Shown piece by piece: positions 8,258 through 21,327 of a stretch of 34,680 bases of DNA. The DNA lies in NCBI GenBank assembly GCA_030528455.1, contig JAUMYW010000012.1, forward strand, positions 1-34,680, given 5' to 3'. The stretch comes from Neisseria sp. (GTDB lineage: Bacteria > Pseudomonadota > Gammaproteobacteria > Burkholderiales > Neisseriaceae). The notes under the pieces are model-generated. The model ran no database searches and was not told the origin of the DNA. It saw only the letters and a list, made by a program, of their open reading frames with translations. Within the stretch, counting starts at the first letter, position 1; each line of letters opens with the position of its first letter. The position numbers and the translations under genes were made by a program.

Positions 8258-9439
8258 TTAGCAGAGTTCCAGGGTTGCGGCAATGCCCATGCCGCCGCCG
8301 ATACACAGTGTTGCGGCTCCTTTTGGTGCTTGGCGGCGCTGCATTTCGTGCAGCAGGCTGACCAGAATGCGGCAGCCGGATGCGCCGATGGGGTGGCCGA
8401 TGGCGATGGCACCACCGTTGACATTGGTTTTTTCAGACGGCAGTTCCAATTGGCCGCATACGCCCAAGGCTTGGGCGGCAAACGCTTCGTTGGCTTCAAT
8501 CAGGTCGAGGTCTCCGACTGTCCAACCGCTTTGGGCCAGAGCCTTCTGCATGGCGGGAACGGGGCCCAAGCCCATGATTTCGGGTTCGATGCCGGCGACT
8601 GCGGTGGCTTTGACTGCGGCCAGCGGGGGCAGACCCAGTTCGGCGGCTTTGGCGGCGGTCATCAGCATAACTGCGGCTGCGCCGTCGTTCAGGCCGGATG
8701 CGTTGGCGGCGGTAACGGTACCGTCGGGTTTGAAGGCGGGACGCAGTTTGGCCATGCTTTCGGCTGATGCGTTGTGTTTGATGTATTCGTCTTCAACGAC
8801 GGTCAGCGGCTCGCCTTTGCGTTGCGGAATGCTGACCGGTACGATTTCGGCTTGGAAACGTCCGGCTTGTTGGGCAGCGGAGGCGCGCTGCTGCGATTGC
8901 AGGGCGAAAGCGTCTTGTGCTTCGCGGCCGATGTTGAGTTTTTCGGCAATGTTTTCGGCGGTAATGCCCATATGATAGCTGTTGTAAACATCGGTCAGGC
9001 CGTCTGAAACCATGCTGTCGGTGAGGGTGCCGTTACCCATTTTCCGACCTTGGCGAATGTCGATGAAATGCGGTGCTTGAGACATCGATTCCTGACCTCC
9101 TGCGATGACGATTTCATTGTCGCCGCTCAAAATGCTTTGTACGGCCTGGCGGACGGCATAGAGTCCGGAACCGCAGACGACGTTTACGGTTGCCGCAGGA
9201 ACGTGCAGGGGAATGCCGGCTCCGACTGCTGCCTGGCGTGCCGGATTTTGTCCGACTCCGGCGGTCAGTACGTTGCCCATTATCACCTCGCTGACGGTTT
9301 CCGGCCGGATGCCGGTTTCGTCAAGCAGTGCACGGATAACGACACTGCCCAGCTGCGGTGCAGACAATGACGAAAGGCTTCCTAAAAAGCTTCCGACCGG
9401 CGTACGTTTGGCAGCAACAATGACAACAGTTTGATTCAT
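8258..9439 (-). CDS. atoB: Acetyl-CoA acetyltransferase (thiolase II)
   Basis: This 393-residue protein is a biosynthetic/degradative thiolase that interconverts acetoacetyl-CoA and two acetyl-CoA. The nucleophile C89 lies in NVVCGSGLYAV, H349 in GGAIAIGHPIGASGCR and the acid/base C379 in CIGGGMGIA. Length matches AtoB/PhaA. In context it would split the acetoacetyl-CoA made by ScoAB from acetoacetate, the end product of tyrosine breakdown. It lies 62 bases downstream of the LysR gene on the same strand and may be co-transcribed with it. A PhaA role in polyhydroxybutyrate synthesis is the alternative, but no phaB or phaC is visible. Confidence 0.93.
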   Translation of the reverse strand: MNQTVVIVAAKRTPVGSFLGSLSSLSAPQLGSVVIRALLDETGIRPETVSEVIMGNVLTAGVGQNPARQAAVGAGIPLHVPAATVNVVCGSGLYAVRQAVQSILSGDNEIVIAGGQESMSQAPHFIDIRQGRKMGNGTLTDSMVSDGLTDVYNSYHMGITAENIAEKLNIGREAQDAFALQSQQRASAAQQAGRFQAEIVPVSIPQRKGEPLTVVEDEYIKHNASAESMAKLRPAFKPDGTVTAANASGLNDGAAAVMLMTAAKAAELGLPPLAAVKATAVAGIEPEIMGLGPVPAMQKALAQSGWTVGDLDLIEANEAFAAQALGVCGQLELPSEKTNVNGGAIAIGHPIGASGCRILVSLLHEMQRRQAPKGAATLCIGGGMGIAATLELC

Positions 9440-9501: not shown

Positions 9502-10416
9502 TTACAGGGTTTTTTGAAAACGCCAAATTCGCTTGTCCTGCTGGGTGAGGAAACGCTCGAAAATAGCAGCAGAGGCAGAAAGACTGCGGTTTTTGCGGCG
9601 GTAAAGGCAGAAGTGCCGTTCGATATGCGGGTCGTGCAGCGGACGCATGGACAGGCCGTTTTGGCGCACCCATTCGGCAGCATAAGGTAGACAAAGGGTT
9701 AGACCGAGTCCGTTGCGCGTCATACTGAGTGCCGTAGACAGAAAATTCACCTGGTGGTCGGATGACATCATTCTCTGAGCCAGATGATCGGGTAAAACGG
9801 CGGCAAGACGGAAAGTGAACGGGCCGTTCAGGGTAATCAGGGGTTCGTGCAGCAAATCTTCCCAAGTAATGCGATTTTTTTCGGTCAGCGCGTGATTTTC
9901 AGGCAGGACGATATGAAAAGGGAGAGAAAATAATTCGCAGGCTTCTATATCGTCGGGCAGTTCGCGTTCCGGACCTATACCGAAATCAACTTCGCCGTTT
10001 TGTACTTGCTGTAAAACATGTTCGACGGAGCAGTCCAACAGCTGCAATTCGATTTCCTTCTGTTCTTTTTTAAATTCAGCCATCAAAAGCGGCATTACGG
10101 AAGCTGCAAGCAGTTGTGAAACAGCCAGCCGAACCTGACCGTGCCGCCCGCTTTTCAGACAGGCAGCTTCTTCTGAAAACAAATTGATTTCATTGATGAT
10201 TCTTTTTGCCGGAGGCAGCAGTTTGCAGCCTGCCGCAGAAAGATGCAGTTGGCGGGTCGTACGGTCGAACAAGCGGATGTCGAGTTGGCTTTCCAATTCT
10301 TTAATCAGGCCGCTCAAAGCCGATTGTGTCAGATGAAGCTGTGCTGCTGCGCGGGTAAAGCTGCCCTGCTCGGCAGCGGCGACAAAAGCTTTAATTTGTC
10401 TGACGCTTATATTCAT
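9502..10416 (-). CDS. LysR-family transcriptional regulator of the tyrosine/ketone-body cluster
   Basis: This is a 304-residue LysR-type regulator. The N-terminal winged helix-turn-helix is typical (MNISVRQIKAFVAAAEQGSF, then TRAAAQLHLTQSALSGLIKE and LFDRTTRQLHLSAAG). The effector-binding domain starts around residue 90 with GQVRLAVSQLLAASVMPLL. The start at 10416 begins the conserved NISVRQ segment and follows CGGAAAAAG; an upstream frame to 10461 adds 15 unlikely residues. It diverges from hppD across 152 bases and reads toward the thiolase gene, the classic arrangement for a LysR protein controlling its neighbour. The inducer is unknown; an aromatic intermediate or ketone body is inferred from context only. 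Confidence 0.92.
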   Translation of the reverse strand: MNISVRQIKAFVAAAEQGSFTRAAAQLHLTQSALSGLIKELESQLDIRLFDRTTRQLHLSAAGCKLLPPAKRIINEINLFSEEAACLKSGRHGQVRLAVSQLLAASVMPLLMAEFKKEQKEIELQLLDCSVEHVLQQVQNGEVDFGIGPERELPDDIEACELFSLPFHIVLPENHALTEKNRITWEDLLHEPLITLNGPFTFRLAAVLPDHLAQRMMSSDHQVNFLSTALSMTRNGLGLTLCLPYAAEWVRQNGLSMRPLHDPHIERHFCLYRRKNRSLSASAAIFERFLTQQDKRIWRFQKTL

Positions 10417-10568
10417 CACTTTTTCCGTTGAATAGATGAGAAAAAACTGTTTGTGTAACAAATAAACTGCATTTTATGATGGCTGTCAAGCATTCTTTAC
10501 CGGACAGTATGCAGGATTTGCTTATCAAACGTATTGCAATATTTGCAGATAGATTATAGGAGAAAAAA
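10417..10568. promoter_or_regulatory. Divergent lysR-hppD control region with two short palindromes
   Basis: Two dyads suit LysR-type binding: TTTGT-GTA-ACAAA at 10450-10462 and TGCAA-TAT-TTGCA at 10535-10547, the second lying close to the hppD start. AGGAG sits before the hppD ATG. I could not identify convincing -35/-10 pairs. The operator role is inference from position and symmetry. Confidence 0.35.
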
Positions 10569-11648
10569 ATGGCTGATTTATTTGAAAATCCGATGGGTTT
10601 GTGCGGTTTTGAGTTTGTAGAGTTTGCCTCGCCGCAGCCGAATGTGTTGGAACCTCTGTTTGAAAAAATGGGCTTTACACTGGTGGCCAGACACCGTTCT
10701 AAAGATGTACTTCTTTACCGTCAGGGCGGTATCAATTTTATTGTAAACCGCGAGCCGAACAGTCATGCTGCATATTTTGCCGCAGAACACGGGCCGTCTG
10801 CATGCGGTATGGCATTCCGTGTGCGCGATGCGCAGGCGGCATACAAGCGTGCTTTGGAATTGGGGGCTCAGCCGGTTGATATTCCGACTTCCGTTATGGA
10901 ACTGCGTCTGCCTGCCATTAAAGGTATCGGCGGTGCGCCTCTGTATCTGATTGACCGTTTTGAAGAAGGCCGGTCTATTTACGATATTGATTTTGAGTTT
11001 CTGCCGGATGTCGAGCGCAATCCGTTCGGTTACGGTATGAAAATCGTCGACCATCTGACCCACAATGTTTATCGCGGCCGCATGGATTATTGGGCGGGCT
11101 TTTATGAGAAACTGTTTAACTTTAAAGAAATCCGGTATTTCGATATTAAAGGAGAATATACCGGCCTGACCAGCCGTGCAATGACTGCACCGGACGGTCT
11201 GATCCGTATTCCTTTGAATGAAGAGTCCAAACAGGGCGGCGGACAGATTGAAGAATATCTGATGCAGTTCGGCGGCGAGGGTATCCAGCATATTGCCTTG
11301 TTGAGCGACAATTTGCTGGAAACTATCGATCGTTTGAGAGAGGCCGGCGTTCCTTTGATGAGTGCGCCGAGAGACACTTATTACGAAATGTTGGAAGAGC
11401 GTCTGCCGGGGCACGGCGAGCCGGTAGCGGAACTTCAGTCGCGCGGTATTTTGTTGGACGGTACGACGGAAGGCGGTGTTCCGCGTTTGCTGTTGCAGAT
11501 TTTTTCGGAAACTCAGTTGGGTCCCGTGTTTTTTGAATTTATCCAACGCAAAGGAGATTACAGAGAAGGTTTCGGTGAGGGTAATTTCAAGGCCTTGTTT
11601 GAGTCTTTGGAGCGGGATCAAATCCGCCGGGGCGCGTTGGAAGTATAA
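10569..11648 (+). CDS. hppD: 4-hydroxyphenylpyruvate dioxygenase
   Basis: This 359-residue enzyme converts 4-hydroxyphenylpyruvate and O2 to homogentisate and CO2, the second step of tyrosine breakdown. It has the family's two VOC-fold halves. The Fe(II) ligands are in the C-terminal half and in register with characterised enzymes: H162 (VDHLTHNV), H241 (GIQHIALL) and E323 (PVFFEFIQR). [21 protein letters not shown] is the usual C-terminal tail. AGGAG precedes the ATG at 10569. It is first in a run of co-directional catabolic genes and diverges from the LysR gene. A separate aminotransferase at 31558-32751 could provide its substrate. Confidence 0.97.
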
Positions 11649-11656
11649 ACAAGCAG

Positions 11657-11690
11657 GTGCAGACGGCATCGGAGTGATGCTGTCTGCATA
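11657..11690 (+). repeat. Imperfect inverted DUS pair inside the hppD operon
   Basis: TGCAGACGGCAT and ATGCTGTCTGCA face each other across 7 bases; the right arm differs from the consensus by one base that still allows a G-U pair. It lies between hppD and the VOC gene and could cause partial termination or merely be an uptake site. Confidence 0.5.
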
Positions 11691-11711
11691 TGCCGATATA
11701 GGAGAAGAAAG

Positions 11712-12257
11712 ATGTCTTTGACGCAAGGAGTGCATCACGTTGCCTACCGTTGTAAAGACGCAAAGGAAACGGTCGAATGGTATCAGAAGCATTTGGGAAT
11801 GGGATTTGTGTTGGCGATTGCGGAGGATAAAGTGCCCTCAACCGGCGAACTCGACCCTTATATGCATATTTTTTTGGATGCGGGCGGCGGCAATATTCTG
11901 GCGTTTTTCGAGTTGCCGACCAAACCGGAAATGGGACGTGATCCGAATACGCCGGTATGGACGCAGCATTTGGCCCTGAAGGTGGAGAGCATGGAAAAAC
12001 TGCTGGCCGTCAAAGATAAGCTGATTGCAGAAGGTGTTGATGTTTTGGGGCCGGTCAACCATACCCTGTTTCATTCTATTTACTTCTTCGACCCGAGCGG
12101 CCACCGTATCGAACTGGCCTGTGATGTCGCGACCGAGAAAATGAACCGGGCCTTGGATAAAGTAAAATGGGATATGCTGAACGAGTGGGCTCAAACCAAA
12201 CGTGCGCCGCAGCATGCCCGTTGGATTCACGACGGTACCGAGCCGCCGGAAGTTTAA
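11712..12257 (+). CDS. Single-domain VOC-superfamily protein (glyoxalase/dioxygenase fold)
   Basis: This 181-residue protein contains two beta-alpha-beta-beta-beta modules of the vicinal-oxygen-chelate fold. Candidate metal ligands are H9 (GVHHVAY), E67 (ILAFFELP), H86 (TQHLALKV) and E134 (HRIELACD). This four-ligand H/E/H/E spacing is like glyoxalase I, but small extradiol dioxygenases and other VOC enzymes share the fold. A C-terminal extension of about 40 residues (NRALDKVKWDMLNEWAQ onward) goes beyond a minimal domain. It lies between hppD and fahA, where the pathway needs a homogentisate ring-cleaving enzyme, and no HmgA is in the window. Catalysis of that step is a hypothesis; a detoxifying or accessory role is the alternative. 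AGGAGAAG precedes the ATG. Confidence 0.85.
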   Translation: MSLTQGVHHVAYRCKDAKETVEWYQKHLGMGFVLAIAEDKVPSTGELDPYMHIFLDAGGGNILAFFELPTKPEMGRDPNTPVWTQHLALKVESMEKLLAVKDKLIAEGVDVLGPVNHTLFHSIYFFDPSGHRIELACDVATEKMNRALDKVKWDMLNEWAQTKRAPQHARWIHDGTEPPEV

Positions 12258-12290
12258 AGGTTTTTGGTTTTGCCGTATTGCGCGAAGCCG

Positions 12291-12316
12291 TGTTTTCAGA
12301 AGGTTGTCTGAAAACA
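12291..12316 (+). repeat. Hairpin with a GTCTGAAAAC arm before fahA
   Basis: TGTTTTCAGA and TCTGAAAACA form a 10-bp stem with a 6-base loop, 17 bases before the fahA start. The right arm with its loop reads AGGTTGTCTGAA, close to the AG-type uptake-sequence dialects of other Neisseria, unlike the CA-ending version that dominates here. Confidence 0.45.
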
Positions 12317-12333
12317 GAAGAGAAAGACACAAT

Positions 12334-13335
12334 ATGAAATTAGCAACTTTGAAACAAGGCGGACGCGACGGGCGTTTGGCCGTAGTCAGCCGGGATTTGA
12401 GCCGTTACGTTCTGCCGGACATTCCGACTCTGCAGACGGCTTTGGATGATTGGGAAAATGCCTGCTGCCGTCTGCAGGCAGTGTATGATGATTTGAATGC
12501 CGATCCCGCGAAAGGCGAGCCGTTCGATCCGGAGCAATGCCATTCTCCTTTGCCGCGTGCTTACCAGTGGGCGGACGGTTCGGCCTATCTGAATCATGTG
12601 GAGCTGGTGCGTAAAGCCCGCAATTCGGAAGTGCCGGAATCATTTTATGACGATCCTTTAATGTATCAGGGCGGTTCGGACAGCTTCATTGGTCCGCGCG
12701 ACGAAGTATTGGCCAAGCCGGAGTGGGGCATTGATTTTGAGGCGGAAGTGGTCGTGGTCAGCGGTGATTTGAAACAGGGCGCGACTCCCGAAGAAGCGGG
12801 TAAGGCCATCCGTCTGCTGATGCTGGTAAACGATGTTTCTTTGCGCGGCCTGATTCCTGCCGAGCTGGCCAAAGGCTTCGGCTTTTTCCAAAGCAAGCCG
12901 GCCAGTGCCTTCAGCCCCGTTGCGGTTACGCCGGACGAATTGGGCGATGCCTGGAGGGATAACAAAGTCCATCTGCCGCTGCGGGTGAAATTGAACGATA
13001 AACTGTTCGGTTTTCCCAATGCCGGTCAGGATATGACTTTCGATTTCGGACGCCTGCTGTCGCATGTTGCCAAAACCCGCGATGCCGAAGCCGGAACGAT
13101 AGTCGGTTCGGGTACGGTTTCCAACAAACAGGATAATCTGTACGGCTCTTCTGTGGAAAACGGTGGCGTGGGCTACTGTTGTTTGGCCGAAGTCCGTATG
13201 TATGAAACCATTGAAACCGGTGCGCCAAAAACGCCGTTTATGCAGCACGGCGATACGGTTGCAATCGAGATGCTGGATGCAGACGACAACAATATTTTCG
13301 GTACGATTATCAACCGCGTGAACACGCAATATTAA
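12334..13335 (+). CDS. fahA: Fumarylacetoacetate hydrolase
   Basis: This 333-residue enzyme cleaves fumarylacetoacetate to fumarate and acetoacetate, the last step of tyrosine degradation. The metal-binding residues are recognisable: E136 and E138 in IDFEAEVVVV, D167 in LVNDVSLRG, with D81 in DGSAYLNHV as a likely fourth. GSGTVSNKQDNLYG is the C-terminal substrate-site loop. Length matches the short bacterial form rather than the 420-residue animal type. The ATG at 12334 is used because it begins the conserved MKLATLKQGGRDGRL; the frame is open 44 codons further up into the previous gene. An inverted pair of uptake sequences lies inside the reading frame at 12431-12476. Confidence 0.95.
   Translation: MKLATLKQGGRDGRLAVVSRDLSRYVLPDIPTLQTALDDWENACCRLQAVYDDLNADPAKGEPFDPEQCHSPLPRAYQWADGSAYLNHVELVRKARNSEVPESFYDDPLMYQGGSDSFIGPRDEVLAKPEWGIDFEAEVVVVSGDLKQGATPEEAGKAIRLLMLVNDVSLRGLIPAELAKGFGFFQSKPASAFSPVAVTPDELGDAWRDNKVHLPLRVKLNDKLFGFPNAGQDMTFDFGRLLSHVAKTRDAEAGTIVGSGTVSNKQDNLYGSSVENGGVGYCCLAEVRMYETIETGAPKTPFMQHGDTVAIEMLDADDNNIFGTIINRVNTQY
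12431..12476. repeat. Inverted DUS pair within fahA coding sequence
   Basis: TGCAGACGGC (12431-12440) and GCCGTCTGCA (12467-12476) are inverted across 26 bases inside the gene, encoding LQTA and CRLQA. Such pairs elsewhere in the window are nearly all intergenic. Confidence 0.7.
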
Positions 13336-13353
13336 ACTATCTGAAACTGTCCG

Positions 13354-13363
13354 GCCGTCTGCA
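13354..13363 (+). repeat. Single DUS between fahA and the NhaC gene
   Basis: One GCCGTCTGCA copy lies 19 bases after the fahA stop with no inverted partner nearby, so it should not form a strong terminator and would permit read-through. Confidence 0.55.
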
Positions 13364-13454
13364 GCTTCCGAAACCAATAACCTGCAGGCGGATCGGAATC
13401 CGGCAGGCAGAACAACAAGCTGTAACCGTCAGCAGCATATAAGAGAGGAAAACA

Positions 13455-14840
13455 ATGAGTGAGAAACTGTTGCAGATGAAGCCCCGCGAGGCGGTGCCGA
13501 TTGCAGGGGCGATTGTTGCCGTTATGGGCATTACGATGATCGGTTTGGGGTGGGTGCCGCATTTGTCGATTATTTTGGTGATGTGTGCCTTGCTGGTGTA
13601 CGGTTGTGCCAAGGGCTTGAGTTTTAAAAACATGCAGTCGGAAATGGCAAACGGAGTGGTGTCCGGTATCGGTGCGATTTATCTGTTTTTCTTTATCGGC
13701 CTGCTGGTGGCTGCACTGATGATGTCCGGTGCGATTCCGACTTTGATGTATTACGGTTTTGATTTTATTTCGCCCCGATTTTTTTATTTGTCGGCTTTTA
13801 TCTTGTGTTCCGTTATCGGTATTTCGCTCGGCAGCGGGTTCACAACCTGTGCCACGGCGGGCGTTGCCTTTATGGGCATGGCCGAAGCGTTTGATGCCAA
13901 TCCTGCTATTGTGGCCGGTGCAGTCGTATCAGGTGCGGTATTCGGCGACAAAATGTCGCCCTTGTCCGATACCACCGGTATCGCGGCATCTGTGGTCGGC
14001 ATCGATTTGTTCGAGCATATCCGCAATATGATGTACACAACCGTTCCCGCATGGATTCTGACTGCCGTTTTCCTGTGGTTTCTGACCGGAAACGTTGCCA
14101 ATGCGGATTTGGCGGATATTGTCGCCATGCAGCAGAAGTTGGTAGAGAGCGGTTTGGTGCACGGTTATGCTTTGATACCGTTTGCAGTGTTGCTGATTCT
14201 CGCTTTACGCAAAGTCGATGCGGTTTATACGATTATCGCAACGATTGTAACGGCACTGGCGGTTACTTACATTCACAGCAGCCCGACATTGGGGCAAATC
14301 GGTTCTTGGTTTTTCGGCGGTTACAAACCTGCCGAAGGCTTGGATTTGGGAGCGGTCGGGCGGCTGGTTTCCCGAGGCGGTATGGAAAGCATGTTCTTTA
14401 CCCAAACCATTGTGATTCTGGCTTTGAGTTTGGGAGGGTTGCTGCATGGTTTGGGTATTCTGCCGGCACTGATGGCAGGTATCAGTCATCTTCTGACAAA
14501 TGTCGGACGTGCAACGGCAACGGCGGCTGCAACAGCATTCGGCATCAATGTCTTAATCGGCGAACAGTATTTGAGCCTGCTCCTGACCGGCAATACCTTC
14601 AAACCGCTCTATGACAAGCTGAATCTGCATCCGCGAAACCTGGCACGTACGATAGAAGATGCCGGTACCGTTATCAATCCTTTGGTTCCGTGGGGCGTGT
14701 ACGGCGTATTCTTGGCAGGCATACTCGGTATTCCGGTTATCGATTATGTGCCTTACGCATTTTTCTGTTACCTCAGTTTGGTTCTGACCTTGATTTACGG
14801 TTTCACCGGTTTGACCATCAGTCGCAAAGAAGAAGCATAG
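13455..14840 (+). CDS. NhaC-family Na+/H+ antiporter-like transporter
   Basis: This is a 461-residue polytopic inner-membrane protein with about 11-12 hydrophobic segments. The family fingerprint GDKMSPLSDTTG is followed by EHIRNMMYTTVPAW, and the second half has GTVINPLVPWGVYG. NhaC-type proteins exchange sodium for protons, and relatives (MleN type) couple this to organic acid exchange. Its place inside the tyrosine cluster, between fahA and maiA, suggests transport of tyrosine, an aromatic keto acid or a pathway product rather than general sodium balance; that is inference. GAGAGGAAAAC precedes the ATG at 13455. It is followed by a uptake-sequence hairpin of the GCCGTCTGAA type. Confidence 0.85.
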   Translation: MSEKLLQMKPREAVPIAGAIVAVMGITMIGLGWVPHLSIILVMCALLVYGCAKGLSFKNMQSEMANGVVSGIGAIYLFFFIGLLVAALMMSGAIPTLMYYGFDFISPRFFYLSAFILCSVIGISLGSGFTTCATAGVAFMGMAEAFDANPAIVAGAVVSGAVFGDKMSPLSDTTGIAASVVGIDLFEHIRNMMYTTVPAWILTAVFLWFLTGNVANADLADIVAMQQKLVESGLVHGYALIPFAVLLILALRKVDAVYTIIATIVTALAVTYIHSSPTLGQIGSWFFGGYKPAEGLDLGAVGRLVSRGGMESMFFTQTIVILALSLGGLLHGLGILPALMAGISHLLTNVGRATATAAATAFGINVLIGEQYLSLLLTGNTFKPLYDKLNLHPRNLARTIEDAGTVINPLVPWGVYGVFLAGILGIPVIDYVPYAFFCYLSLVLTLIYGFTGLTISRKEEA

Positions 14841-14849
14841 CAAAGCATT

Positions 14850-14879
14850 GCCGTCTGAAAATCGTATTTTTCAGACGGC
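14850..14879. terminator. Inverted pair of canonical-type DUS (GCCGTCTGAA)
   Basis: GCCGTCTGAAAA and TTTTCAGACGGC pair over 12 bp around a 6-base loop. Unlike the other pairs in the window, this uses the classic Neisseria ending GAA instead of GCA. It stands between the NhaC gene and maiA. Confidence 0.65.
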
Positions 14880-14918
14880 CCTGATATGCCGCTTGCAAGC
14901 AATCAAGAAAGGGATGCG

Positions 14919-15560
14919 ATGAAACTTTATTCCTATTACCGCAGTTCGGCTGCTTACCGCGTGCGTATCGCACTGAATTTGAAACAGCTTCCTTACGAAA
15001 TTTCGACCGTTCATCTGCTGCGCAATGGAGGAGAACAGAAAACCACAGAATATGCGGCTGTGAATCCCCAGCAGCTTGTTCCGACTTTGGAAGACAAAGG
15101 GCTGCTGCTGACACAATCGCTGGCGATTATCGAATATCTGGACGAAGCTTATCCGAAAACCCCGCTGCTGCCTGCCGACAGTGCGGGGCGGGCCAAAGTG
15201 CGGATTCTTTCCCACTTGATTGCTTGCGATGTGCACCCTTTGAACAATCTGCGTGTTTTGCAATATCTGAAAAATTGTTTGGGAGTGGGCGAACAGGATA
15301 AAAATACCTGGTATGCCCACTGGATCCGACAAGGGCTGGAGGCTTTCGAACAGCATTTGAAAGAGCCGTCTGCAGGCCGTTTCTGCTACGGCGACACTCC
15401 GAGCATGGCCGACTGCTGCCTGATTCCCCAATTGTATAATGCCAGACGTTTTCAAATCGATTTAAGTCCTTATCCGAACATTCTGCGTATCGAACAGGAG
15501 TGTGCCGGACTGCCTGCTTTTCAAACTGCCGCACCGGAAAACCAGCCGGATGCAGAATAA
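14919..15560 (+). CDS. maiA: Maleylacetoacetate isomerase (zeta-class GST)
   Basis: This 213-residue glutathione-dependent isomerase turns maleylacetoacetate into fumarylacetoacetate, the step between ring cleavage and FahA. The zeta-class active-site motif is at the N-terminus as RSSAAYRVRIALNLK (residues 8-22); the cysteine of the textbook SSC motif is alanine here, a substitution I believe is common in bacterial members. NPQQLVPTLEDKG and LTQSLAIIEYLDE supply the glutathione site, and DVHPLNNLRVLQYL and YGDTPSMADCCLIPQLYNARR are characteristic of the C-terminal domain. AAGAAAGGGA precedes the ATG at 14919. Its presence implies that maleylacetoacetate is really made in this cell, although no HmgA is visible. 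Confidence 0.95.
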   Translation: MKLYSYYRSSAAYRVRIALNLKQLPYEISTVHLLRNGGEQKTTEYAAVNPQQLVPTLEDKGLLLTQSLAIIEYLDEAYPKTPLLPADSAGRAKVRILSHLIACDVHPLNNLRVLQYLKNCLGVGEQDKNTWYAHWIRQGLEAFEQHLKEPSAGRFCYGDTPSMADCCLIPQLYNARRFQIDLSPYPNILRIEQECAGLPAFQTAAPENQPDAE

Positions 15561-15805: not shown

Positions 15806-17145
15806 GTGTTTCGTTATTTAACCGCTTTAAACGTTCGTTTGGTACAAAACTGGCTGCCTTCGCCGTTCGTATTCTGTATTGTATTGACTGTACTGGCATT
15901 TGCCGCCGTCATGGGTGCAGGCGGGCAAGGGCTGAATGAAGCTGCAGGTTTTTGGGGAAAGGGCTTGTGGTCCTTATTGGGTTTTTCGATGCAGATGGCT
16001 TTGATTCTGGTAACCGGCCACGTGCTGGCAAAAGCACCGTTTATCGGCCGCCTGTTAGACGGTTTGGCCGCCAAAATCAACAGCCCGAAAATAGCCGTGT
16101 TTGCAGTAACGCTGGTTTCTTTGGTGTGCTGTTGGCTGAACTGGGGTTTCGGTTTGATTGTCGGTGCGGTATTTGCGAAAGCTCTTGCGAGAAAAGTGGA
16201 CGGTGTCGATTATCCTTTGCTGGTTGCATCTGCATATTCCGGTTTTTTGATTTGGCACGGCGGTTTATCCGGTTCGATACCGTTAGCATTGGCCAGTGAA
16301 GGTTCGGATTTGGCGAAAATGAGCGGCGGTGTGGTCGAAGCTGCCATTCCCGTAGCGGAAACCCTGTTTTCCCCATTGAACCTGTTTATTGTTGCGGCTT
16401 TGTTGGTTGGCTTGCCGGTGTTGAATATGCTGATGACTCCGGATAAGCCTGTAATTGCAGATAAAGCCAAATTGTTTGAGGTTGAACCCGAATTGCCGCC
16501 GCGCAGTACTTTGGCACAAAAATGGGATGACAGCCGTTTGATGGTTTTGCTTTTAGTGGCTTTGGGTGCGGTATATTTATACGGTTATTTCAGCAAAGCA
16601 GGATTCAATCTGGCTTTGAACGTTGTCATTGCCTTGTTTTTATTTGCCGGTCTGCTGGCACATGGAACTCCGGAACGTTACGGCAGAGCGGTGGAAGACA
16701 GTGCGAAAGGCATTGCGGGCATTGTTTTGCTGTTCCCGTTTTACGGCGGCATTATGGGTTTGATGACAGGGGCGGCAGAAGGTCAGACGTCTTTGGCAGT
16801 TTCCATCAGTCAGGCTTTTGTTGCGGCATCATCTGAGCAGACTTTCCCGCTGCTGGTTTTTTGAGTGCCGGTTTGGTGAATGTTTTTGTTCCGTCCGGTG
16901 GAGGGCAGTGGGCTGTACAAGGACCGATTATGCTGCCTGCGGGCACGGCTTTGGGCATCAGTCCGGCTGTTTCTGCGATGGCGGTGGCATGGGGTGATGC
17001 GTGGACGAATATGATTCAGCCGTTTTGGGCATTGCCTTTGTTGGGGATTGTCGGTTTGGATGCCCGTGCGGTGATGGGTTATTGCCTGATGGCTTTATTG
17101 TATTCGGGTTTGGTTATTGCTTCGGCTTTGATGATTTTTGTTTGA
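15806..17145 (+). pseudogene. atoE: Short-chain fatty acid / acetoacetate transporter AtoE, frameshifted
   Basis: Two adjacent frames together make one AtoE-family carrier of about 446 residues. The first (15806-16864) covers residues 1-352, beginning MFRYLTALNVRLVQNWLPSP, with many membrane segments. It stops at TGA at 16862-16864, right after a run of six T's (16857-16862). The rest (LSAGLVNVFVPSGGGQWAVQ to the end at 17145) continues in the next frame and matches the family's C-terminus, including AVAWGDAWTNMIQPFWALPL. One extra T would restore the whole protein, so this is a one-base deletion in a homopolymer. It may be a true mutation, a phase-variable tract or a sequencing error. AtoE imports short-chain fatty acids or acetoacetate, fitting the ScoAB/BdhA neighbours. 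Confidence 0.88.
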
Positions 17146-17268: not shown

Positions 17269-17437
17269 AAAAGAAGGTGTTTTGATAATTATCCAGTATT
17301 TATCGGATAATTTGATAAATAAATCAGAAAATACCGTTTGTATGCTTAAAAAGAACAAAGTTTAATTTCCTTTAAATATTTTGGAGATTTGCTTACAAAG
17401 CATTGCAGATTCAGTGTGCGACCAAAAGGAGAGGGAG

Positions 17438-18005
17438 ATGAAATTCAAATTATTGTTTTTGGCGTTATGTTCGGCTTTGTTTTTGAATGCCTGTTCGGAA
17501 GATATCGGTTCCTCCGGCAGTCCGGCGGCTCCTCTGGCCGATGGAGAAAAAGTGGTATTGAAGGTGGCTCATTTCTGGCCTTCGGCAGCCATGTCGCAAC
17601 AGAAAATTTTGGAACCTTGGTGCGGAAAAATTTCTAAGGAATCAAATGGTCAGATGAGCTGCCAGTTCTACCCGTCCATGCAATTGGGCGGTACGCCCCC
17701 CCAATTGATTGATCAAGTTGCAGACGGCATAGCGGACATTGTTTGGACTTTACCCGGCTATACGGCCGGCCGTTTCCCGAGTATGGAGGTGATGGAGCTG
17801 CCGTTTCTGACTAAAGACGGTGAAAAAAGCAGCAGGGTTGCGTGGCAGATATATGAAGAATTCGGTAAAAAAGATTTTGAAGCAGTCAAACCTCTGGCAT
17901 TTAATGTGCATGACCGAGGACAAATTCATAATAACGTCTTGCCGATTGTTAAATTGGAAGATTTTAAAGGTTTGAAACTGCGTGCCCCGACCCGACTGAC
18001 CAACA
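17438..18005 (+). pseudogene. dctP: TRAP transporter substrate-binding protein DctP, C-terminally deleted
   Basis: The frame starts with a lipoprotein signal (MKFKLLFLALCSALFLNAC, lipobox LNAC) and about 190 residues of the DctP family: KVVLKVAHFWPSAAMSQQ, MSCQFYPSMQLGG, ADGIADIVWTLPGYTAGRFP, ELPFLTKDG and LEDFKGLKLRAPT. Family members normally run to 320-350 residues. Here homology ends after LTNK at about 18005 and the frame continues only to a stop at 18035-18037 through sequence belonging to another gene. The missing half includes the helices closing the binding cleft, so the protein should not work. The substrate cannot be told; neighbours suggest a hydroxy- or keto-acid. AGGAGAGGGAG precedes the ATG at 17438. 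Confidence 0.88.
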
Positions 18006-19103
18006 AATCGCGGAGGTTTGTCGAAGAAACTGTTTGAAACGGCCAATGCGTTTCTAGGCCATTACAGGGGCGGAGCAGCCATTAGTGCAGTAGGTGCCTG
18101 TGCCGGTTTCGGTGCGATTTGCGGCTCTTCGCTGGCAACGGCGGCAACGATGGGGCAAGTGGCGTTGCCCGAATTGAAACGTGTCGGATATTCGGATGCG
18201 TTGGCGACAGGCACGCTTGCAGCCGGCGGTACATTGGGCATTCTGATTCCGCCGTCCGTGGTGTTGGTGATTTATGCGGTATTGGCCGAACAAAATATCT
18301 CGGCAATGTTTATGGCTGCTCTGGTGCCGGGTGTTATTGCAATGTTCGGTTATATGGCGACGGTTGCGGTATATGTCCGCTTGTTTCCCAGGAGCGGTCC
18401 GGCCATGTCGGCAATGGCATGGAAAGAACGTGTTGTTTTGCTGAAAGGCGTATGGCCTGTAATAGCGGTGTTTGTTACCGTTATTGGAGGAATTTACGGG
18501 GGCTTTTTTACACCGACCGAGGCTGCGGCAGTCGGGACGGTAGCTGTAGCGGTTTTGGCATTGGTAACACGGGAATTAGATGGTAACGGTTTGCTTCGTG
18601 CGTTGACGGATACGGCTTCGGCAACGGCAATGATTTTTATGATTTTGCTGGGAGCCGATGTATTAAATGCTTTTTTTGCTTTATCACAGATGCCGTCCGG
18701 TGTCGCAGAGTGGGTAATCGGCACTGGTATGGGGCCGTTGACGGTTTTGTTTGCAATTATCCTGATTTATTTGCTGCTCGGCTGTGTGATGGACAGTCTG
18801 TCGATGATTCTGCTGACGGTTCCGGTATTTCTGCCGGTTGTGATGGGAATGGATTATTGGGGATTGGGAGATGCGGATAAAGCGATTTGGTTCGGCGTAT
18901 TGGCGTTGATGGTGGTCGAAATTGGTTTGATTACGCCCCCGGTAGGAATGAATATATTTATTATCAACAGTTTGGCAAAAGAGGTGCCGATGAAGGAAAC
19001 GTATAAAGGCATACTCCCTTTTTTGTGTGCTGATGTGCTTCGGATTGTATTATTGGTCTTTGTCCCCGGACTGACACTGTGGTTGGTTCATTTTCTGTCC
19101 TGA
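18006..19103 (+). pseudogene. dctM: TRAP transporter large permease DctM, N-terminally deleted
   Basis: Homology to the large permease subunit begins abruptly at NRGGLSKKLFETANAFLGHY and runs to a normal C-terminus ending LTLWLVHFLS. About 365 of the usual 425-plus residues are left; the first one or two membrane helices are gone. Clear DctM segments include GACAGFGAICGSSLATAATM, GTLGILIPPSVVLVIYAVL, GGFFTPTEAAAVG and VVEIGLITPPVGMNIFII. The junction with dctP lies at 18004-18008, and the small permease gene (dctQ) that normally stands between them is absent. A TTG at 18018 could in principle start translation, but a functional TRAP system is very unlikely. Confidence 0.88.
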
Positions 19104-19181
19104 CTTTTTTGATGGCTCTGGAATGCAAAATGCCGGTGTCGGGCGGTCTGGAAATTTTAGGGAACATTTAAGGTGGAAATT

Positions 19182-19976
19182 ATGTCTATACAATATAATC
19201 TTACCGGTAAAACAGCATTGGTAACCGGTGCTGCCAGCGGTATTGGTAAGGAAATTGCAGAACAGTTTGCCGCCTCGGGAGCGGCAGTAGGTGTGGCCGA
19301 TTGGAATAAAGATGCGGCAGAGAAGGCGGCCGCCGATATTCGGAGTAAAGGCGGTCGGGCATTGGCGATTGCGATGAATGTTTGTGACGAGAAGGAAGTT
19401 GCAGACGGCACTAATCGTTTGGCCGAGGCGTTCGGACGCATTGATATTCTGGTTTCCAATGCCGGTATCCAGATTATCAATCCGATTGACAAACTGGCGT
19501 TTTCCGATTGGAAAAAAATGCTGGCGGTCCATTTGGACGGAGCATTCCTGACGACACAGGCTGCTTTGAAACATATGTATTCAGACGGGCTCGGCGGTAC
19601 GGTAATCTATATGGGCTCCGTGCACTCCCACGAAGCATCGCCGTTGAAGGCACCGTATGTAACGGCCAAACACGGTTTGCTGGGTTTGTGTCGGGTGCTG
19701 GCCAAGGAAGGTGCGGCACACAAGGTTCGTTCGTATGTGATTTGTCCCGGATTTGTCAAAACCCCTTTGGTCGAAAAACAGATTCCGGAACAGGCTGCGG
19801 AGAAGGGTATCAGTGAAGAAGAAGTGGTAAAGAAGGTGATGCTTGGCAATACGGTCGACGGAGAGTTCACTGCGACCGCAGACATCGCACAGCTGGCTTT
19901 GTTCCTTTCAGCCTATCCGAATAATGTTTTTACAGGACAATCTTTTATTGCCAGCCATGGCTGGTCGATGAAATAA
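19182..19976 (+). CDS. bdhA: 3-hydroxybutyrate dehydrogenase
   Basis: This is a 264-residue short-chain dehydrogenase. The NAD-binding TGAASGIG is at residues 15-22, SNAG at 92-95, and the catalytic triad is S146 ([11 protein letters not shown]), Y159 and K163 (YVTAKHG). The [20 protein letters not shown] and [19 protein letters not shown] segments, and the ending [12 protein letters not shown], are characteristic of D-3-hydroxybutyrate dehydrogenase, which oxidises 3-hydroxybutyrate to acetoacetate. A GTG at 19173 gives a longer frame, but the ATG at 19182 is preferred because AAGGTGG lies at good spacing before it. It leads directly into scoA and scoB, which activate acetoacetate, so the three form a ketone-body operon. 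Confidence 0.93.
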
Positions 19977-19997
19977 AACTTACTTGAAGGAGAAATG

Positions 19998-20696
19998 ATG
20001 AATAAACTTTATCCCGATGCGGCCGCCGCATTAAGCAGTGCGGTTGCAGACGGCCAAACGGTAGCTGTCGGCGGCTTCGGCTTGTGCGGCATTCCCGAAG
20101 CATTGATTGCCGCCTTGCGCGACAGCGGAGTAAAAGACTTGACCTGTATCAGCAACAATGCCGGTGTGGACGGCTTCGGCTTGGGTCTGTTGCTGGAAAC
20201 CCGCCAGATAAAAAAAATGATTGCATCTTATGTTGGCGAAAATAAAGAATTCGAGCGGCAGTTTCTGTCGGGAGAATTGGAAGTCGAACTGACACCGCAA
20301 GGAACACTGGCCGAAAAACTGCGGGCGGGCGGTGCCGGCATTCCGGCGTTTTTTACCAAAACAGGCGTAGGAACGCAGGTTGCAGACGGCAAAGAAATCC
20401 GCGAATTTGATGGTGAGGAATATGTATTGGAACATTCGCTGACTGCTGATGTTGCGTTGGTGAAAGCTTGGAAAGCCGACAAGTCGGGTAATCTCGTATT
20501 CCGAAAAACCGCACGCAATTTCAATCCCGATGTGGCGACTGCCGGCAGGATAACCGTTGTCGAAGTAGAAGAGCTGGTGGAAACCGGTTCGCTCGATCCC
20601 GACCAAATCCATCTGCCGGGTATTTACGTACACCGCATCATTGTGAATGCGGCACCGGAAAAACGCATCGAACAACGTACCGTAAGAGAGGCATAA
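19998..20696 (+). CDS. scoA: 3-oxoacid CoA-transferase subunit A
   Basis: This 232-residue protein is the alpha subunit of succinyl-CoA:3-oxoacid CoA-transferase, which moves CoA from succinyl-CoA to acetoacetate. Family segments include [73 protein letters not shown] and [15 protein letters not shown]. Two ATG codons are back to back (19995 and 19998); I take the second because AGGAG ends five bases before it, while the first would leave only two. The gene is 21 bases after bdhA and two bases before scoB. Two uptake sequences lie within the coding region, both read as Ala-Asp-Gly. Confidence 0.95.
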
Positions 20697-20697
20697 T

Positions 20698-21327
20698 ATG
20701 GCTTGGACACGCGAACAAATGGCGCAGCGCGCCGCCAAAGAGCTGCAAGACGGCTTTTATGTCAATTTGGGCATCGGTTTGCCTACTTTGGTGGCCAACT
20801 ACATTCCGGAAGGTGTAAACGTGATGCTGCAATCGGAAAACGGGCTGCTCGGTATCGGAGCGTTTCCGACCGAAGACGAATTGGATGCGGATTTGATTAA
20901 CGCCGGCAAACAAACCGTTACCGCTATTCCGGGAGCAGCATTTTTTTCCAGCTCGCAGTCTTTTGGCATGATTCGCGGCGGCAAAGTGAATTTGGCGGTT
21001 TTGGGTGCGATGGAAGTTTCCGAACAAGGCGACTTGGCCAACTGGATGATTCCGGGAAAAATGGTTAAAGGAATGGGCGGCGCGATGGATTTGGTGGCCG
21101 GTGTGCAGCGCGTGATTGTATTAATGGAGCATACGGCGAAAAACGGCGCATTCAAAATCAAAGCGCAATGCGATTTGCCTCTGACAGGCAAAAAAGTAGT
21201 CAATCGCATAATCAGCGATTTGGCGGTATTGGACGTTACGCCGGAAGGCTTGCAACTGGTCGAACTGGCCGACGGTGTGAGCTTTGAAGCTTTGCAGGCT
21301 GCAACAGGGGTGAGTATCCGACAATAA
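20698..21327 (+). CDS. scoB: 3-oxoacid CoA-transferase subunit B
   Basis: This 209-residue beta subunit carries the catalytic glutamate, E47 in [11 protein letters not shown], which forms the CoA thioester intermediate. Other family segments are [40 protein letters not shown] and [18 protein letters not shown]. With ScoA it makes acetoacetyl-CoA from acetoacetate and succinyl-CoA. Translation is probably coupled to scoA, which stops one base before this ATG with AAGAGAGG upstream. It is the last gene of the island, closed by a uptake-sequence terminator. The acetoacetate could come from FahA, BdhA or outside. Confidence 0.96.

Follow-up and report, generated by a model that had tools for sequence, protein, structure and literature searches.

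In a 34,680-nt stretch of the Neisseria sp. genome (assembly GCA_030528455.1, contig JAUMYW010000012.1, positions 1 to 34,680; the window hereafter), a gene run for tyrosine degradation carries a gene for a small VOC-fold protein at the place that homogentisate 1,2-dioxygenase (HmgA) takes in other such runs. We propose with considerable confidence that the family of this protein represents a non-orthologous homogentisate 1,2-dioxygenase, which is very probably equivalent to HmgA in function yet stands outside the HmgA family. We infer the reaction from the distribution of the gene, its slot in the gene run and a phenotype described for Acinetobacter baumannii. The run comprises, in this order and all on one strand:

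10569..11648, + strand: hppD, 4-hydroxyphenylpyruvate dioxygenase, product homogentisate (TIGR01263, 387.7 bits, cut-off 277)
11712..12257, + strand: gene for the VOC-fold protein of 181 amino acids (aa), the proposed non-orthologous homogentisate 1,2-dioxygenase (PF00903, 63.2 bits; invariant residues, distribution, slot and operon context)
12334..13335, + strand: fahA, fumarylacetoacetase of the FAA_hydro_N_2 type, 333 aa (PF01557, FAA_hydrolase, and PF18288, both over cut-off)
13455..14840, + strand: gene for an NhaC-type Na+/H+ antiporter (TIGR00931, 381.4 bits, cut-off 370)
14919..15560, + strand: maiA, maleylacetoacetate isomerase (TIGR01262, 315.9 bits, cut-off 171)

The original prediction had described hppD, maiA and fahA as intact and contiguous, with the VOC gene between hppD and fahA. 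The profiles confirm the three enzyme families, the positions of hppD and the VOC gene are as described, and the genes indeed form a single run, but fahA and maiA are separated by the antiporter gene. The starts listed for these two genes are inner ATG codons (12334 and 14919), and longer open reading frames (ORFs) begin upstream of both.

According to our proposal, HppD would deliver homogentisate, and the VOC protein, as a single-domain, type-I-extradiol-like enzyme replacing the cupin HmgA, would open its ring with O2 to give maleylacetoacetate. MaiA would convert this product into fumarylacetoacetate, FahA would cleave the latter into fumarate and acetoacetate, and acetoacetate would then be used by the thiolase, CoA-transferase and 3-hydroxybutyrate dehydrogenase encoded nearby. 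We favour this assignment because of the distribution within the genus, the complementarity of VOC and HmgA in order and class, the lack of HmgA in all 38 re-searched genomes, the common slot and the fumarylacetoacetase (FAH) neighbours, and further because of the acetoacetate-use genes adjacent to the cluster (in Acinetobacter NCu2D-2 and in the window), the residues aligned with those of XylE and the insertion in A. baumannii. The idea of a non-orthologous dioxygenase, voiced in the original prediction as one option, has thus gained support from distribution, slot and insertion phenotype.

The window's own assembly yielded no match to the HmgA models PF04209 and TIGR01015. As this assembly is only 68.69% complete, the absence of HmgA was judged from relatives. 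PF04209 was found in none of 35 congeners and in seven of the 60 relatives searched overall, all seven belonging to other families. VOC orthologues of 87-93% identity are present in seven of the 35 congeners. Together with the window genome, these eight VOC carriers among 36 genomes are exactly the eight with an hppD over the curated cut-off, and HmgA occurs in none of the 36. All seven fetched congener loci show the order hppD-VOC-fahA-nhaC-maiA, with an hppD-VOC gap of about 1.5 kb in two (L022 and L024), and two of the genomes consist of a single contig (G018 and G021) with the same run and no HmgA. A further congener, G164 from the order sample described below, carries both hppD and VOC but lacks HmgA; no maiA was seen within its fetched stretch. 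Since PF04209 had missed a divergent cupin HmgA in six of 11 order-sample genomes that at first seemed to have neither gene, the 38 VOC-bearing genomes without a PF04209 match (24 from the order sample, seven more from the class sample and seven more congeners) were searched again. Neither TIGR01015 nor the divergent cupin was detected in any of the 38, while each search found its four positive controls; it has to be added that not all of these assemblies are complete (G000, G020, G022 and G209, below 90%). That HmgA only seems absent through the narrowness of PF04209 was rejected on the basis of this re-search, and the reservation that HmgA may simply be encoded elsewhere in the genome fails for the relatives.

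On a wider scale, we considered 300 genomes of the order, 82 of them with hppD, and 274 of the class, 42 with hppD; three hppD-bearing genomes are common to both samples. By PF04209 alone, the order sample divided into 24 hppD-bearing genomes with VOC only, 40 with HmgA only (34 strong and six weak matches), seven with both and 11 with neither (Fisher p=8e-7). After addition of the six divergent cupins, the figures were 24, 46, 7 and 5 (p=5e-10). Both p values are uncorrected for kinship and inflated by related genomes, and the distribution was for this reason also examined inside families: four of them (f14, f22, f28 and f39) each include VOC-only as well as HmgA-only genomes but not a single genome with the two genes together. 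In the class sample, VOC only was found in seven genomes, HmgA only in 24, both in none and neither in 11, two of which are also among the five of the order sample; all eight VOC-bearing genomes of the class, with or without hppD, are free of HmgA. Co-occurrence of the VOC gene with hmgA in most clusters, regarded in the original prediction as a counter-argument, was not seen: HmgA was present in seven of 31 genomes of the order with both VOC and hppD and in none of seven such genomes of the class. The tallies leave out VOC matches below 250 bits (a distant subfamily), a match of 30% identity in G005 and HPPD-like matches under the cut-off. They include as HmgA 12 weak PF04209 matches (20.7-29 bits), of which the one inspected (G056, locus L007) is a divergent cupin HmgA, and as hppD-positive with neither gene a class-sample match in G398 that scores below the cut-off and contains three stops.

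The divergent cupin also illustrates that one slot is filled by two kinds of protein. All six divergent-cupin loci read hppD-cupin-fahA, with maiA next in five; elsewhere the slot reads hppD-VOC-fahA. The cupin (376 aa in L007) reaches 68.8 bits with TIGR01015, whose cut-off is 510.75. It shares its place with VOC in other genomes of the order and, unlike VOC, is a relative of HmgA. Its presence beside hppD in L007, L147, L150, L158, L161, L162 and L163 constitutes an annotation gap of its own. As to the distant VOC subfamily (143-169 bits; loci L149, L152, L154, L156, L157 and L160), it is present in all five hppD-bearing genomes of the order sample that have no other candidate, and might open homogentisate there. 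Position 67 in this subfamily is D instead of E in seven of eight rows, and members also occur in HmgA-bearing genomes, e.g. G118, G131 and G214.

For gene neighbourhoods we used 80 named loci, the best 80 of at least 590 relatives and hence biased toward close ones. FAH of either type lies within 3.5 kb of VOC in 63 of these, 22 of which also have maiA; among the 17 loci lacking FAH, six are less than 2.5 kb from the end of the stretch. An Ideonella plasmid shows overlaps of four bases each between hppD, VOC and fahA, and Acinetobacter NCu2D-2 has the order fahA-maiA-VOC-CoA-transferase A/B-thiolase. Three genomes (G062, G190 and G256) contain an hppD-fahA-maiA run without a dioxygenase gene, and their VOC gene lies elsewhere with none of the sought neighbours beside it. 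In the tree, the VOC proteins of the window, the congeners and Pelistega europaea form one clade with support 100/98 in which all contexts include hppD. The Pelistega europaea copy (L027, Alcaligenaceae; order VOC-fahA-maiA-hppD) is 86% identical to a Neisseria-like one and was likely acquired by horizontal transfer. A single clade of VOC proteins of an "hppD type" was ruled out, as the tree requires at least eight changes of the hppD+FAH context on well supported branches, with a bootstrap that is not fully settled. A conjugative plasmid of Enterobacter sp. JBIWA005 (L189) carries a LysR gene and a VOC-MFS transporter-FAH-maiA set flanked by insertion sequences; a megablast search of plasmids gave one match of 2% and nothing useful. 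With VOC in 31 of 82 hppD-bearing genomes of the order and in Acinetobacter, passed between lineages and carried on plasmids, once a conjugative one, we consider it probable that the tyrosine route has a widespread ring-opening alternative of unrelated fold.

The genetic evidence comes from A. baumannii, where the locus reads fahA-maiA-VOC-IclR-hppD and the VOC protein is 61.6% identical to that of the window. According to PMC9431530, a Tn2006 insertion in a gene called hmgA leads to pyomelanin, and plasmid-borne hmgA abolishes the pigment; the target-site duplication is termed 11 bp there, with nine letters printed. In two loci taken from other A. baumannii strains, the printed site is found three times in 18.5 kb; in the cluster from fahA to hppD it is found once, inside the VOC gene. 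For this reason the gene called hmgA there is, as far as sequence matching can tell, most likely the VOC gene. Fonseca 2020 (PMC7646211) describes a pigmented A. baumannii strain without an hmgA homologue and a gene for a type I ring-cleaving dioxygenase between hmgC and hmgR. Both papers would seem to deal with the same VOC gene. The "hmgA" reference for A. baumannii in PMC11945678 is a 633-base stretch with a 14-base overlap with hmgB; by its layout it is probably a mislabelled maiA. A reference of maiA length and overlap under the name hmgA makes the gene names in the A. baumannii pigment literature unsafe.

The VOC protein of the window consists of a single PF00903 domain (cut-off 20.6), a model also matched by all 24 members of the VOC family set (E<=0.001). 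No match was obtained with TIGR01015 or PF04209. The curated extradiol subfamilies are not reached (TIGR03211, 38.8 of 320 bits; TIGR02295, 24.2 of 321; TIGR03213, 20.9 of 366), nor is the glyoxalase I model TIGR00068 (20.3 bits, cut-off 120), and all NCBIfam matches stay far under their cut-offs. Judged by its sequence, the protein forms a branch of its own next to the type I extradiol dioxygenases. The four candidate metal ligands named at the outset, H9, E67, H86 and E134, are present and, like H117 and Y124, invariant in all 127 rows of the family alignment. Aligned with catechol 2,3-dioxygenase XylE (PDB 1mpy), H86, H117, Y124 and E134 correspond to XylE positions 214, 246, 255 and 265, which we take to be two metal ligands and a second-sphere His and Tyr. 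The 2-His-1-carboxylate triad is present at the level of sequence, with H86 and E134 matching XylE 214 and 265 and H9 added on account of its invariance (127/127), given that the XylE alignment starts at residue 54. The extradiol signature (PROSITE PS00082) covers residues 115-134 and is found in 123 of the 127 rows. We suggest Fe(II) as the metal, with H9, H86 and E134 as ligands and H117 and Y124 in second-sphere roles. H9, E67, H86 and E134 also make up an H/E/H/E pattern of candidate ligands like that of glyoxalase I, and E67 might serve as the fourth ligand, in the manner of that enzyme, or as a partner of the para-hydroxyl of the 1,4-diol. A role for this extra carboxylate is proposed because homogentisate, being a 1,4-diol, does not offer the iron chelation of a catechol.

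Several observations weigh against a homogentisate dioxygenase. XylE His199, presumably the His of proton transfer, lacks a counterpart in VOC; the aligned position 73 is E and variable in the family. Seven of the 31 VOC-bearing hppD genomes of the order also have HmgA, so in certain contexts the VOC protein may act on a different substrate. In the fetched stretches of these seven, VOC is never beside hppD: in five it accompanies a MarR-type regulator, in some of them together with a flavin adenine dinucleotide (FAD) monooxygenase, in another it belongs to an MBL-EthD-VOC-FAH run, and in the last it lies near HmgA and FAH. This suggests that some members may serve another hydroquinone. Moreover, hppD can occur without any candidate dioxygenase found here, as in the five order-sample genomes without VOC, HmgA or divergent cupin and, by the tally, in nine more from the class. 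VOC in turn occurs without hppD in five of 36 VOC-bearing genomes of the order and one of eight of the class, and hppD is within 3.5 kb of VOC in only nine of the 80 named loci. Finally, the A. baumannii argument depends on a short printed site matched in other strains rather than on the genome of the mutant, and PMC7646211 holds the dioxygenase gene to be probably inactive.

Alternatively, the VOC protein could be a generalist that opens the rings of hydroquinones (1,4-diols) in several pathways, with homogentisate one substrate among several and the others produced by FAD monooxygenases, an explanation that partly overlaps with ours. In line with it, an FAD monooxygenase lies within 3.5 kb of VOC in 46 of the 80 named loci, well ahead of hppD, and along the tree the VOC context has changed repeatedly. 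In addition, five MarR-VOC-FAD monooxygenase clusters (L016, L132, L137, L100 and L103) have no FAH within 3.5 kb, the first three belonging to genomes that also carry HmgA. However, 37 of the 46 loci keep FAH within the same distance, which fits homogentisate, formed for example from a hydroxyphenylacetate, and not a different ring. We see a generalist role as possible, if rather doubtful. An isomerase or accessory role had been put forward as equally compatible with the ligand pattern. Such a role, or one in detoxification, with the ring opened by an unrecognised enzyme, is suggested by the glyoxalase-like ligand pattern and the low NCBIfam scores. It is disfavoured by the mutual replacement, for the most part, of VOC and HmgA, by their common slot, by the isomerase MaiA already encoded in the cluster and by the insertion phenotype in A. 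baumannii, and appears unlikely to us.

If instead the pathway stopped at homogentisate, the latter would be secreted as pyomelanin and VOC, MaiA and FahA would act on another substrate. Bacteria without a working HmgA do secrete pyomelanin, according to PMC8449657 among others, but hppD, VOC, fahA and maiA stand in one run in all seven fetched congeners, even with the wider gap in two of them, and genes for acetoacetate use are nearby; this end point is in our view very improbable. Least credible of all is an HmgA outside the incomplete assembly and a VOC protein unrelated to this step. The low completeness of the window's assembly speaks for it, and it was nevertheless rejected, as the seven congeners with the same run, single-contig genomes included, gave no match to PF04209, TIGR01015 or the divergent cupin. 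We thus retain the VOC protein as the very probable homogentisate dioxygenase.

The genes around the run that bear on it are the following:

8258..9439, - strand: acetyl-CoA acetyltransferase (thiolase) (TIGR01930, 457.7 bits, cut-off 240.55)
9502..10461, - strand: LysR-type regulator gene, divergent and adjoining hppD (LysR-type matches, those shown all below cut-offs)
19173..19976, + strand: 3-hydroxybutyrate dehydrogenase (TIGR01963, 313.5 bits, cut-off 307)
19995..20696, + strand: 3-oxoacid CoA-transferase subunit A (TIGR02429, 260.4 bits, cut-off 128.5)
20698..21327, + strand: 3-oxoacid CoA-transferase subunit B (TIGR02428, 325.3 bits, cut-off 243.55)

The thiolase, CoA-transferase and dehydrogenase genes fit the use of acetoacetate, with which the homogentisate route ends. 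In all seven fetched congener loci, the thiolase gene is near the cluster, the LysR-type gene adjoins hppD and the antiporter gene has the same place. From its position, the LysR-type product could regulate the hppD run; a promoter and terminator scan gave signals no more frequent than in shuffled sequence. Between the run and the dehydrogenase gene, an AtoE-like transporter ORF (15806-16864) may be truncated, its TIGR00366 match covering 2-357 of 438. The TRAP transporter genes at 17381-19103 look damaged: DctP stops early, covering profile positions 11-144 of 257, and merges into a DctM beginning at profile position 59, and no DctQ ORF was found between them, which reflects either a deletion or an assembly join. 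The core of the neisserial uptake sequence occurs in six copies in the window, with 0.04 expected, which gives the genome a Neisseria-like appearance.

In alkaptonuria it is homogentisate dioxygenase that is lost, and in bacteria this enzyme is the pyomelanin switch; the VOC family is known in databases only as "VOC family protein". If our proposal is true, annotation based on TIGR01015 gives false gaps in many Proteobacteria, and the VOC fold gains an enzyme that acts on a non-vicinal diol. The A. baumannii pigment literature would likewise be sorted out, with one paper regarding the gene as inactive and another seemingly using a maiA reference as hmgA. Among the titles and starts of abstracts searched, with most subscription journals outside this scope, no VOC homogentisate dioxygenase was described.

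Of the known systems, HmgA (HGD; TIGR01015, PF04209) occupies an equivalent position in the gene run and would, as we propose, catalyse the same reaction, yet it is a cupin of about 430 aa, as opposed to one VOC domain in 181 aa, and thus of a different fold. With the type I extradiol dioxygenases (XylE, TIGR03211) the VOC protein shares the fold, the signature and the aligned H86, H117, Y124 and E134; unlike XylE, it has one domain, no counterpart of His199, the additional invariant E67 and a proposed 1,4-diol substrate in place of catechol. The hydroquinone dioxygenases LinE and PcpA are VOC enzymes that open 1,4-diols, of about 320 aa and with other substrates; no chain named after them is among the PDB sequence matches of the window protein. 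A PDB entry named "Glyoxalase" (9u42) matches it at E=6.7e-72 and is, by eye, nearly identical to the A. baumannii VOC protein. The latter has appeared, it seems, as "hmgA" (PMC9431530) and as a "type I ring-cleaving dioxygenase" (PMC7646211), in neither case presented, in the accessible parts of these papers, as a VOC replacement of HmgA.

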